Positions 20,722 to 28,892 of a DNA stretch of 64,000 bases are shown one piece after another. How positions within the stretch are numbered: position 1 is the first letter of the stretch; each line of letters begins with the position of its first letter. Source of the DNA: an uncultured Verrucomicrobiota bacterium (lineage in GTDB: Bacteria; Verrucomicrobiota; Verrucomicrobiia; Limisphaerales; UBA9464); contig CAIVQB010000001.1 of assembly GCA_903907925.1 (NCBI GenBank), forward strand, positions 1 to 64,000. Direction: 5' to 3'. The notes under the pieces are model-generated. The model searched no databases and was not told the origin of the DNA. It saw only the letters and a list, made by a program, of their open reading frames with translations. Made by a program: the position numbers and the translations under genes.

Positions 20722-21429
20722 TCAACCGGCGACCGGACGTTGTTTCGGAGGGATCGGCATCAGCCAGGCGAGGATGAGTCCGGCCGGGATGTAACCCGAG
20801 ACCCCGAAGAGAAAGCTCATCCCAAAGGCATGCCAGTTGTTGTATCCATAGAAATGGGGTCGAGAAGTCGAAATGATGGCCCACTGGAATAGGGCGTCTA
20901 TCGCGATTCCAGCAATGATGACAACTGCAGCAGCGCGCAGGCGAGTTGCCACCATCGGAACCCATCGATTCAGCCCCGATTTCCAGCGCCCTCTTGCCAA
21001 CTGGATCGCGACAACCAGTGGGATCATTCCGATCAAGAAATAAACCGAGATGACGAACGCATTTACGAATTGAACGGGTATCTTTTGCGCAAGATTGGCG
21101 ACAGAAAACCGCGCCAGATTGGCAATCGATCCCCAGAGGTGAGCCGCGACCCAGCCGACCAAAATCCAAAAAACTCGACGGCGCCAGACGGCGGCCGGAT
21201 CGGACTGCCCGAATTCCCCAGCCAACGCCGTAGGCGATCCCAACCGCCGGAACGCGATCAGGAACGATTCCTCTTCCGAAAGCCCCCGCTGACCAAGGTC
21301 GGCGAGCGCGGTGCGAAGGTGTTCCTCCAGTTCGGAAATGGTGTCGCCGCCGGCCGGGAGTTCCTCGACGAGTCGTTGCCGCCAACTCCGGATGGCGTTT
21401 TCTAAATCGAAACGGGTCGAAGGTTCCAT
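20722..21429 (-). CDS. PadR-linked membrane protein with permease-prefix-like N-terminus
   Basis: 235 residues. The N-terminal ~75 residues (FDLENAIRSWRQRL, ISELEEHLRTALADLGQRGLSEEESFLIAFRRLG) match the 'permease prefix 1'/HAAS-like segment found in membrane proteins encoded beside PadR regulators. Four or five hydrophobic segments follow: VFWILVGWVAAHLWGS, FVNAFVISVYFLIGMIPLVVAI, AAAVVIIAGIAIDALF, and the C-terminal FLFGVSGYIPAGLILAWLM. The gene overlaps the 3' end of padR by 28 bp, implying translational coupling. ATG 21429 is used; 11 more in-frame codons upstream lie inside padR. Function unknown, probably part of a PadR-sensed membrane or stress module. Confidence 0.82.
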   Translation of the reverse strand: MEPSTRFDLENAIRSWRQRLVEELPAGGDTISELEEHLRTALADLGQRGLSEEESFLIAFRRLGSPTALAGEFGQSDPAAVWRRRVFWILVGWVAAHLWGSIANLARFSVANLAQKIPVQFVNAFVISVYFLIGMIPLVVAIQLARGRWKSGLNRWVPMVATRLRAAAVVIIAGIAIDALFQWAIISTSRPHFYGYNNWHAFGMSFLFGVSGYIPAGLILAWLMPIPPKQRPVAG

Positions 21430-21740
21430 AGTTTCCCCAGGGTGTTGTGGACGGCCAGCCAATTGGCTTTCTCCGTGTTGAGAGTCTTCCCGCCCTTGCT
21501 CGTCAGGCGGTAATATTTCCGTTCACGACCGGTTTCTGATTTCCGCCATTCCGCGACGATCAACTTGTCCCGTTCGAGTCGGTGCAGGACCGGATAGAGC
21601 ATGCCGTCGGTCCACTGCATCTCCGCGCCGGACAATTCCCTGACCCGCTGGATGATCGCGTAACCGTAGCTCTCATTCTCCGCCAGGATGGACAAGACCA
21701 GCGGCGTCGACGAAGCGGCAATTAGATCACGTGGCAGCAC
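21402..21740 (-). CDS. PadR family transcriptional regulator (module 1)
   Basis: 112 residues with a winged helix: STPLVLSILAENESYGYAI (recognition region), then MQWTDGMLYPVLHRLERDKLI and the wing GRERKYYRLTSKGGKTL. These are hallmark PadR-s1 motifs (YxIxQ, GTLYPxLxRLExxGL). The start is a GTG at 21740 giving (M)LPRDLIAASSTP, the family's usual N-terminus; the upstream open frame is not homologous and runs through the promoter. A consensus promoter and a perfect palindrome lie immediately upstream, so the mRNA probably begins at the GTG and the gene is autoregulated. First gene of a two-gene operon. Confidence 0.9.
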   Translation of the reverse strand: MLPRDLIAASSTPLVLSILAENESYGYAIIQRVRELSGAEMQWTDGMLYPVLHRLERDKLIVAEWRKSETGRERKYYRLTSKGGKTLNTEKANWLAVHNTLGKLWNLRPVSI

Positions 21741-21747
21741 GAACGAG

Positions 21748-21775
21748 ATTATACATAACCGAGCTATGTATTCAA
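21748..21775 (-). promoter_or_regulatory. PadR promoter overlapped by palindromic operator
   Basis: On the minus strand TTGAAT (21775-21770), a 16-nt spacer and a perfect TATAAT (21753-21748) form a strong promoter. A perfect palindrome, ATACATA - 7 nt - TATGTAT (21751-21771), covers the spacer and touches both hexamers. The arrangement fits repression by PadR, whose family favours ATGT/ACAT dyads. The predicted transcription start falls on or next to the GTG start codon. Confidence 0.75.
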
Positions 21776-21859
21776 TCGAAAACGAAACCGAAAATGGCCT
21801 GGACGGGTCGAAACGGGGAATGCGGTCCGCGGGTAGGGTCGAGGCTCCCGCCGAGCCGG

Positions 21860-21955
21860 GAACGTGGTAGGACGTGGGACGCACCTGGACAGAGTTGAAT
21901 CCGTCCGTCCACCTGGGTCACTCGGAAGTTCGCCCTACCGACGCTGGTTCCGCGT
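21860..21955. repeat. dispersed ~100-bp repeat, copy 1
   Basis: Roughly 75% or more identical by eye to 34893-34990. Shared blocks include GTGGTAxGAyGTGG, TCCGTCCGTCCAC, GGAxxTTCGCCyTACCG and GGxxTTCCGCGT. Part of this copy encodes the last ~13 residues of the VOC protein, including its stop. Confidence 0.75.
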
Positions 21956-26960: not shown

Positions 26961-26986
26961 TTGACTATATCCGTAGTGGATATAAC
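26961..26986 (+). promoter_or_regulatory. PadR module 2 operator/promoter region
   Basis: A perfect palindrome, TATATCC - GTAGT - GGATATA (26966-26984), lies 25 bases upstream of the padR ATG at 27010. TTGACT (26961-26966) abuts its left arm and TATAAC (26981-26986) its right arm; their 14-nt spacing is short, so the exact promoter is unsure. The dyad is a good candidate for PadR autoregulation. Confidence 0.6.
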
Positions 26987-27009
26987 TGTGACGGACGTAA
27001 TTCGATTCC

Positions 27010-27408
27010 ATGGGTATTTCGAGACAGACGGCAGGAGGTGGGGGCGGTTCGGCGGATTCGGGTCCGTTGACCCCCGCTGTGTTTCATATTCTGGTCGCGC
27101 TCGCCGAGGGGGAGCGTCACGGATATGCCATCATGCAGGATGTACTGGAGACCACCGAGGGACGGATCCGCATGGGACCGGGGACGCTTTACGGCACTTT
27201 GAAACGCTTGCTGGAAGCCGGCCTGATTGCCGAGGCCGGGGAACGGCCGGATCCCGAACCGGGTGAGGAACGTCGCCGCTATTATCGACTGACCGCGCAA
27301 GGCAGCCGGGCGGCAACAGCGGAGACCCATCGCCTGAACCAGATCGTCCGCGCTGCGTCGCGTCGTGGATTGGGCCGGCCGCCATTGGGATCGCCGGGCC
27401 CCGCCTGA
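27010..27408 (+). CDS. PadR family transcriptional regulator (module 2)
   Basis: 132 residues. A Gly/Ser-rich N-terminus is followed by a PadR winged helix: LTPAVFHILVALAEGERHGYAIMQDV, then IRMGPGTLYGTLKRLLEAGLI, and the wing PGEERRRYYRLTAQGSRAATAE. It binds DNA as a dimer and usually represses adjacent membrane-protein genes. Its stop is 8 bases before the start of the Wzz-like chimera, so the two are almost certainly cotranscribed. Its own operator-like palindrome lies upstream. Signal unknown. Confidence 0.92.
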   Translation: MGISRQTAGGGGGSADSGPLTPAVFHILVALAEGERHGYAIMQDVLETTEGRIRMGPGTLYGTLKRLLEAGLIAEAGERPDPEPGEERRRYYRLTAQGSRAATAETHRLNQIVRAASRRGLGRPPLGSPGPA

Positions 27409-27416
27409 TCGTTGCC

Positions 27417-28892
27417 ATGACACCGCGCGACACCCTCCAAAGGATCCAACGCCACGCGGGCGTTTACCGCCGTTTGACGCGCCTGTTCCCGGCCGGGTTC
27501 CGCAGCGAGTACGAGGAACCGATGGTCCAGTTGTTCCGCGATCATTGCCGCGAGGCGATGGAATCCGATCGAACCACCGACTGGCTGGCGCTGTGGAGCC
27601 GGACCCTGGCCGATGCTGGAGTCTCGCTCATCCGCGAACACGCCTCCGCCCTGCGTCGCCGTTTTCAAAACTGGGGCCGGAAAGTCCCTTCTGCCGCTGC
27701 TCTTATGACTGCCTCCAAGACTTCTCGTCGCTTTCCGTGGTGCTGCATTCCCCTATTGGCGGTGGTGGGCGGGGTCGTGGCCGGAGGGATCAGCGCAACG
27801 ATGCCCAATCGTTACCGGGCCACCTCGACATTGGTCAGCGTTCCCAGGCTTGCAGCGTTGCCGCCGGCAAATCAGGTGAGTCCGATGTCGGCCGATAGCA
27901 TCCTGGCTTCGATGACTCAGGAGGCGGTCATTCAGCGGACGCTGGGCAAACTGCAGGAAGGTCACGGCAATACCAACAAGTTGATCCGCCCGGCGCTTTC
28001 CGCACGTTCCGGTTTCGGCGGAACGTTTGTCATGGAGGTCACCAGTACCGAGTTCGACTATTCGCGGAGATTCGCGGCCAAGTGGGCGAATGAATTCGTT
28101 GATTTCACCCGGGAGGTACGAAGAAACCAGATAGGGAACAGTGAGGCGCAGACAACCTCCCTGATTCTGACATTTCAACGAAAATGGGAGTCGGCGCAAC
28201 AGGCGTTGGATGATTTTCAGAAAAAGAACAGCACGATCGTGGCGACCGATTCCGAAAGTGTTCAGGAAACATTGAAGGCGCACCGTGCGACGCTGGCTGG
28301 GTTAAGACAGGAACGGATGCGGCTGGAAACCGCGCCGCGCTTGACGCTTGGGACCGTGAGTTCCGGGAATCCCGCATTTGATCTCAAATTTGAAATCCGG
28401 AAACTCGAGAACCGGCTGGCGGGGCATCCCGAGGATGCTGGGTTGAAATCCGAACTCGCCCTCAAGAAAGCGGACCTTGAATCCTATTCCGAACTCGTGA
28501 AGGAGGATCTTCAGGCACGAATCGCGGAAACGGAACGGTTGGAAAAGCTCGTGGAAATGCAGATGCGTGAAGAGCAACAGGCGGTCTTCGAGACGGCGGC
28601 ACTTGTCGTTGAAGAACGCCGCCTCCGGGAGGAAATGGACCGGTATAAACAGCAGTTGGATGCCCTGAACAACCAACTGGTTCAAATGGGGCGATTTACC
28701 GTCGACGAAGACCCGTTCCAGATTGTCGCGGTCGGCACCGGTTCACCCATCCCCATCGGTCCCAATCGCCCACTGAACGTCGCGGTGGGCATCGGCTGCG
28801 GTGGACTCGCGGGCATGATCGTCATGATTCTGTTGGTGGGTGCACGCCGGCTTCGTTCCACGCCCACCGCGCCGGGACTGGCACCCGGTTGA
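27417..28892 (+). CDS. chimeric membrane protein: PadR-linked N-terminal segment plus Wzz/GNVR-like region
   Basis: 491 residues in two parts. Residues 1-90 (RLTRLFPAGFRSEYEEPMVQLF, then TLADAGVSLIREHASALRRRF) match the cytoplasmic N-terminal segment of membrane proteins and permeases encoded beside PadR genes. Residues 106-491 have the layout of polysaccharide co-polymerases: a transmembrane helix (CCIPLLAVVGGVVAGGISA, 109-127), NRYRATSTLVSVPR just outside it, a long coiled coil (about 240-430, e.g. LENRLAGHPEDAGLKSELAL), and a Pro-rich SPIPIGPNRPL before a second helix (VAVGIGCGGLAGMIVMILLV). No C-terminal tyrosine-kinase domain. An internal ATG at 27705 could start the Wzz-like part alone. 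Role inferred: PadR-controlled, chain-length-like membrane scaffold. Confidence 0.8.
   Translation: MTPRDTLQRIQRHAGVYRRLTRLFPAGFRSEYEEPMVQLFRDHCREAMESDRTTDWLALWSRTLADAGVSLIREHASALRRRFQNWGRKVPSAAALMTASKTSRRFPWCCIPLLAVVGGVVAGGISATMPNRYRATSTLVSVPRLAALPPANQVSPMSADSILASMTQEAVIQRTLGKLQEGHGNTNKLIRPALSARSGFGGTFVMEVTSTEFDYSRRFAAKWANEFVDFTREVRRNQIGNSEAQTTSLILTFQRKWESAQQALDDFQKKNSTIVATDSESVQETLKAHRATLAGLRQERMRLETAPRLTLGTVSSGNPAFDLKFEIRKLENRLAGHPEDAGLKSELALKKADLESYSELVKEDLQARIAETERLEKLVEMQMREEQQAVFETAALVVEERRLREEMDRYKQQLDALNNQLVQMGRFTVDEDPFQIVAVGTGSPIPIGPNRPLNVAVGIGCGGLAGMIVMILLVGARRLRSTPTAPGLAPG

Follow-up and report, generated by a model that had tools for sequence, protein, structure and literature searches.

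Polysaccharide co-polymerases (PCPs) that lack a kinase, such as the Wzz, EpsF and XrtA proteins (PF02706, TIGR03017 and TIGR03007), usually lie in polysaccharide operons without a prefix or PadR, and cells with two Wzz proteins can make alternative chain lengths. On the regulatory side, the HAAS-PadR dyad has been proposed, in PMC11237479, as an alternative two-component system, and the words 'Wzz', 'polysaccharide' and 'chain length' are absent from its main text. A search of the open-access PMC literature found nothing joining PadR with 'polysaccharide co-polymerase'. When PadR was searched with polysaccharide and chain length, or with Verrucomicrobia, a padR-PCP pair was absent among the matches listed, and the combination of PadR, permease and Acidobacteria gave nothing on topic, judged by title.

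The locus described here lies in a 64-kb stretch of DNA (the window) from an uncultured Verrucomicrobiota bacterium. A padR gene (27010..27408, + strand) encodes a winged-helix repressor of 132 amino acids (PF03551, E 2.9e-17; NCBIfam TIGR03433 padR_acidobact, 1e-15, under the model cut-off). After 8 bases it is followed on its 3′ side, on the same strand, by an open reading frame of 491 residues (P0001; 27417..28892, +), as the earlier note had described, and full-length relatives of the encoded protein are known. An AlphaFold2 model of the full protein, built from an alignment of 18 sequences, reached a pLDDT of 84. The features that it predicts, all on the + strand, are a cytoplasmic prefix (residues 1-85, 27417..27671) with helices at 4-21, 26-49 and 53-85; a first membrane helix (residues 101-128, 27717..27800); the N-terminal part of a periplasmic alpha/beta base (residues 129-212, 27801..28052), in which the match to the genome's own kinase is strong; and a coiled-coil arm (residues 213-430, 28053..28706) that is 46 residues shorter than that of this kinase. 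The last base strand follows with most of the proline motif PIPIGPNRP, itself at 444-452 (residues 431-449, 28707..28763), and then the second membrane helix (residues 451-480, 28767..28856). The base strands were modelled at 132-141, 193-198, 203-210 and 434-442, and two long helices (213-305 and 341-426) form the arm. The protein stops 11 residues past the second helix, and the C-terminal P-loop kinase of Wzc-type proteins is absent. No polysaccharide gene was found with Pfam among 14 larger ORFs between 16.5 and 40.8 kb of the window (two of the 14 matched no family at all), and an ORF at 11.4-14.1 kb showed no polysaccharide family either; the claim that such genes are missing within 10 kb thus holds for the larger ORFs tested in the 16.5-40.8 kb interval. 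A second padR gene (21402-21884, within 20722-21884 on the - strand) lies 5 kb from the first, and its partner, of a different type, has 246 residues and matches the NCBIfam permease prefix domain 1.

To which family does the larger part of the fusion belong? Taken alone, the 491-residue protein matched no Pfam family above cut-off; among the Wzz, EpsF and TIGR03007 models it matches only the last, the XrtA chain-length family, at 1.7e-6, far under the cut-off. A profile of 22 family members reached Wzc at 2.2e-16 and PslE at 4e-10, and at E <= 0.01 these members matched Wzz (PF02706) in 10 cases, GNVR in 10, EpsF (TIGR03017) in 14 and TIGR03007 in 18, so that the sequence relationship is seen at the family level, with the window protein singly below the cut-offs. 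The predicted model has the PCP fold: its best solved match was Wzc (Foldseek 8.9e-9), and VIA-align placed Wzc first (Z 14.6, rmsd 4.6, 199 aligned), followed by KpsE (11.9) and WzzE (11.7). Its layout is likewise that of a PCP, with two membrane helices flanking a periplasmic domain and the proline motif at the second helix. The Wzz/GNVR layout that the earlier note had read into residues 100-491 is therefore borne out by family profile and structure comparison, and we conclude from the sequence and the predicted model that residues 101-480 are a PCP of the Wzz/Wzc type without a kinase. When the protein was searched against its own genome, residues 108-301 and 353-472 were 55% and 47% identical, respectively, to a protein of 770 residues encoded on contig 132. 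This protein belongs to the polysaccharide tyrosine autokinases (TIGR01007, 4.8e-44, exceeding the cut-off) and adjoins an export-protein homologue (TIGR03027, 5.5e-9, under cut-off). The window gene thus carries the periplasmic portion that is typical of a Wzc-like protein, devoid of the kinase.

The prefix matched no model in the Pfam and NCBIfam scans. Modelled alone, it reached a moderate pLDDT (70.7), and Foldseek against the PDB gave no match up to an E of 10, which by itself is no evidence for a new fold. The permease prefix 1 model, which we take to be HAAS-like, had no match in the window protein or in P0003, and the GxP motif is absent from the third (residues 53-85) of the three predicted helices. 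Two other padR partners in this genome match NF038403 (permease prefix domain 1), unlike the window fusion. With a profile of residues 12-84, the prefix was detected in 30 of 245 genomes of the order Limisphaerales. These 30 loci, one per genome, comprise 25 prefix-PCP fusions in a single ORF, four in which the prefix stands on another membrane protein and one broken copy. The fusion count is partly circular, given that the profile used for it contains 20 of the 25 fusions as rows (all but L068, L081, L085, L086 and L088); the fusion layout was additionally read directly from the loci. A padR gene, recognised by motif or by eye, lies beside the prefix ORF at 28 of the 30 loci and at 24 of the 25 fusions. 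A wider profile found the prefix in 3 of 387 genomes drawn from the phylum, including the present genome and one weak match (7e-4), so the prefix seems to be concentrated in the order; a match in the same class (L093) carries the prefix without a PCP.

Among named genomes, 27 prefix loci were found, 26 of which aligned with the window prefix. Most belong to Verrucomicrobia, many of those to 'subdivision 3' or Limisphaerales, and the set also includes five Chloroflexi/Anaerolineae, one Rubrobacter and one Acidobacteria. The Chloroflexi/Anaerolineae proteins (L109, L114, L117, L118 and L120) have 5-10 hydrophobic helices by hydropathy and lie beside padR; in the Acidobacteria locus L119, the prefix precedes an ADOP permease with a padR-like gene adjacent. 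Such a gene is located upstream at 25 of the 27 loci, with none seen at L101 and L112. The suggestion that the first 90 or so residues resemble the N-terminus of PadR-adjacent membrane proteins was thus confirmed for residues 12-84. Within the genus, the search for further fusions beside padR found the fusion in six of eight genomes, full-length in G004, G005, G007 and G010 and cut by a contig end in G009, and two members carry the kinase but not the PadR-fusion module. Because the genus holds five complete copies of the fusion and many more occur outside it, we ruled out an assembly artefact; the fusion is not unique to this assembly, which the earlier note had named as a refuting outcome. 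The present genome also encodes a second prefix protein beside padR (contig 121, L007:1809-3145; 323 residues), which looks PCP-like without an arm; it is included in the family alignment and by itself matches nothing in Pfam or NCBIfam.

Several loci depart from the common arrangement. L068 and L101 each have a prefix-PCP frame of 419 residues, with no padR seen in the adjacent DNA, and L084 (G125:C8) has two consecutive prefix-PCP open frames. L091 (G174:C68) is a broken copy with a stop within the prefix, a PCP fragment and no padR seen nearby. L041 (G012:C190) is a lone PCP-like frame with an internal stop, next to which neither padR nor the prefix was noticed.

How might the module be regulated? 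The operator-like palindrome that the earlier note had pointed out 5′ of padR is present as TATATCCGTAGTGGATATA (26966..26984, unstranded), with seven-base arms (TATATCC and GGATATA, around GTAGT) that pair without a mismatch, 25 bases 5′ of the padR ATG. It differs at two positions from the family consensus TATATCCGTNACGGATATA. At up to three mismatches, this consensus was found in none of 100 shuffles of the window (chance 0.00), and a scan of the whole genome found only the copy at 26966-26984. Across 37 distinct loci, 14-18 of the 18 fixed positions were found 5′ of padR in 32, and shuffles of each upstream region gave about 10 positions on average and 15 at most. Five loci fell below 14: L066, L112, L101 (9 of 18), L119 (11) and that of contig 121 (12). 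All 13 further genomes with the module have the operator at the padR operon, in a single copy in 11 and in two copies in G116 and G187, and neither of the two genus members that lack the module has a match anywhere in its genome; as a control, the reversed pattern was seen in five of these 15 genomes, once in each. The operator is also present at all five Chloroflexi/Anaerolineae loci (L117, 18 positions; L109, 17; L114, L118 and L120, 15). This sharing of operator and prefix with Verrucomicrobia suggests that the cassette has been transferred between phyla. Because the genome holds a single operator copy, PadR probably controls this operon alone, that is, the operon is probably autoregulated. 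As for the PadR control claimed by the earlier note, the operator itself is conserved, and it is from this conservation that we infer the control of the fusion gene.

The new observation of this study is a likeness between the PCP half and the Wzc-like kinase encoded in the same genome, mainly in the periplasmic part. We aligned the six fusions of the genus with the kinases of the same genomes. Over residues 108-290, identity between the window fusion and its own kinase is 57%, as against 45-51% with the five remaining kinases and 37-48% with the remaining fusions. For the G005 fusion, identity is 63% with its own kinase, 62% with the kinase of the sister genome G007 and 43-44% with the four kinases from the other clade. 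Residues 291-352 show a different pattern; here the window fusion shares 55-61% identity with the other fusions of clade 1 and 21-26% with the kinases. Among 14 further fusion genomes, 13 yielded a close relative of kinase size, with open frames of 720-745 residues, and G274 has tandem PCPs in its place. There, at L166 (G274:C1), a PadR-PCP pair is accompanied on its strand by two further matches to the PCP profile, perhaps as a three-gene operon. An 18 × 18 identity matrix over 209 columns comprised 13 genomes outside the genus and five within it, leaving out G274, which has no kinase of 720-745 residues, and G009, in which fusion and kinase are cut by contig ends; G009 was kept in the genus alignment and genus tree. 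The own kinase was the top match among 18 in 14 genomes (G010 and G007 tied with the sister's kinase) and ranked lower in four (G154, 2; G229, 4; G061, 6; G064, 12). Mean identity in the 13 non-genus genomes, including G153, was 42.1% to the own kinase versus 33.6% to others, and none of 20000 permutations was as high; for the five genus genomes, the excess gave p 0.008.

Where in the protein does this excess reside? For the base (129-212 plus 431-449), it was 8.7 points in the 12 non-genus genomes without G153 (0 of 5000 permutations) and 7.7 points in the genus (p 0.0096), and it was likewise present in the arm region. At the two membrane helices, it was absent in the genus (-0.2 and -1.0) and weak in the 12 other genomes (2.1 and 1.6; p 0.07 and 0.056). 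As a control, a second kinase paralogue was compared in 11 genomes, with L165 and L166 left out and G228 (a doubtful match of 1510 residues) and G187 (461 residues only) retained; the excess was 1.7-1.9 for the fusion and 1.4 for the kinase, versus 5.5-8.3 for the own kinase, and this background was itself above chance (p 0.007-0.017). The G228 match (L164; G228:C142) is a 1510-residue frame with an unusual N-terminus (PCP profile, 9.7e-48), and could represent either a large chimera or a chance match through coiled coil.

In the genus tree of residues 108-290 plus 421-472, the fusions fall at two spots among the kinases, and one fusion clade is rejected (p-AU 0.0032); in that of residues 291-420, they form one clade (99/97). 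The order tree, which contains long branches and drew a program warning, rejects a single fusion clade (p-AU 0.0002), and its starred branches force at least three label changes, although three changes may equal one gain and two losses. That the PCP half arose once and then simply diverged was therefore rejected by the AU tests, with the long branches as a caution. At fourfold sites, the G153 fusion is identical to its own kinase at 28 of 38 compared with 82 of 278 for other kinases; we accept from this that the fusion shares recent DNA with its kinase, and the order tree nests the pair among kinases. Elsewhere, fourfold-site identity is slightly raised in the main group (0.424 own versus 0.368 other) and hardly raised in the genus (0.477 versus 0.459). 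A recent whole-gene duplication in each genome was rejected for most, because silent sites lie near the level seen between mismatched pairs and there is hardly any match in the membrane helices. In 17 of 18 genomes the fusion has a shorter coiled-coil arm than the own kinase, by 6 to 218 residues, and in one the two arms are equal. The deficit is 43-46 residues in the genus, and in seven of the 18 fusions the arm is nearly gone (26-56 residues versus 243-247 in the kinase). The small deficit of 6-12 residues in three genomes, and none in one, counts against the short-armed subunit proposed below.

What might such a module do? The regulatory cassette of operator, PadR and prefix is conserved, and it is joined to a PCP half that stays matched to the resident kinase or is renewed from it and that lacks the kinase domain and much of the arm. 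Such a combination would be expected of a subunit that fits the resident ring or its polymer. The reading to which we lean, tentatively and with somewhat less than even confidence, is that of an autoregulated PadR module that supplies a kinase-less, short-armed PCP matched to the resident exopolysaccharide kinase ring. PadR would occupy the operator at 26966-26984 and repress its own operon; once this repression is lifted, the PCP, with its short or nearly missing arm and with a periplasmic part that stays matched to that of the resident Wzc-like tyrosine kinase, would be produced and might enter the kinase ring, or compete with the kinase for the same polymer and polymerase. Either course could change the length or the export of the exopolysaccharide, and the cytoplasmic prefix might bind PadR and signal the state of the kinase/PCP assembly. 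A more far-reaching version, which we consider possible but rather doubtful, is that the PadR-prefix cassette has repeatedly taken up the periplasmic half of the own kinase, dropped the kinase domain and arm and entered the ring, thereby coupling PadR to the ring without phosphorylation. Some of the data speak against these proposals. A shared ring would predict matching membrane helices, and these hardly match; the four genomes in which another kinase matches better count against a matched subunit, as do the two kinase-bearing genus members without the module against the proposal as a whole. The moderate model of the prefix, which had no counterpart in the PDB, the small background match of the second paralogue and the long branches in the trees weigh on the same side.

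Other explanations of the same data can be imagined. The fusion might be a self-standing second co-polymerase that forms its own rings and sets another chain length once PadR is lifted, its base being matched simply to the same polymerase and polymer. The PCP family and fold, the periplasmic match to the kinase and the existence of kinase-less PCPs (WzzE and KpsE among the structure matches) fit this explanation, whereas the near loss of the arm in seven of 18 genomes and the lack of a polysaccharide gene nearby among the larger window ORFs tested do not; we consider it unlikely, although by no means far-fetched. Somewhat less probable still is that the PCP serves as a sensor in a HAAS-PadR-like dyad, perceiving the polymer or the envelope and freeing PadR, with its own level as the output and no structural role in export. 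The prefix does occupy the HAAS position beside padR, on otherwise unrelated membrane proteins including the ADOP permease. Nevertheless, with one operator copy here and in 11 of the 13 other genomes, a sensor without further targets would have little to do, and the prefix has neither a match to the HAAS-type model nor the GxP kink.

The match to the own kinase could also have arisen incidentally, from gene conversion that now and then joined the paralogues, without any joint function. The recently shared DNA in G153 and the two placements in the genus tree, which resemble clade-level replacement, are consistent with this explanation, and the slightly raised fourfold sites mean that the matching could be the trace of an old conversion. 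However, the excess is found in the 12 further genomes although silent sites rise so little, it fades at the membrane helices, and it is far weaker for the second kinase paralogue; we therefore regard gene conversion as an improbable explanation of the whole pattern, and retain the matched, kinase-less PCP as the reading to which we lean.

These observations bear on how capsule and exopolysaccharide machines might be adjusted by routes other than kinase and phosphatase. A look-alike that, throughout an order, is copied anew from the resident kinase or stays matched to it constitutes a natural experiment on which surface must match, and the fusion-kinase pairs offer a direct test for mixed rings. 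The observations also bring out a cytoplasmic domain associated with PadR, in many cases accompanied by a conserved operator of its own and beyond the Pfam and NCBIfam models scanned, through which PCPs, an ADOP permease and membrane proteins of Chloroflexi are connected to a single type of switch.

How, then, does the module compare with known systems? The Wzc-type kinases (TIGR01007/TIGR01005) are its nearest relatives by sequence and share the two membrane helices, base, coiled-coil arm and proline motif; in contrast to them, the fusion lacks the kinase, has an extra prefix and a shorter arm, and lies beside padR, away from export genes in the window. With the Wzz, EpsF and XrtA proteins it has in common that it is a kinase-less PCP. 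ADOP permeases (TIGR03434) resemble it in the similar prefix found ahead of the ADOP model at L119, beside a padR-like gene, but there an FtsX/MacB-like permease replaces the PCP and this type of operator is missing. HAAS-PadR dyads, as described in PMC11237479, likewise combine a helical cytoplasmic segment on a membrane protein with an adjacent stand-alone PadR gene, and differ in the permease prefix 1 match and the kink in the third helix. Listeria LstR and LltR, according to PMC6624303, are PadR proteins that mainly regulate their own operon with membrane proteins, although these membrane proteins are different and the host is Gram-positive. The HAAS-PadR dyads (PMC11237479) and the self-regulating PadR proteins of membrane-protein operons (PMC6624303) are the nearest regulatory precedents for the module.
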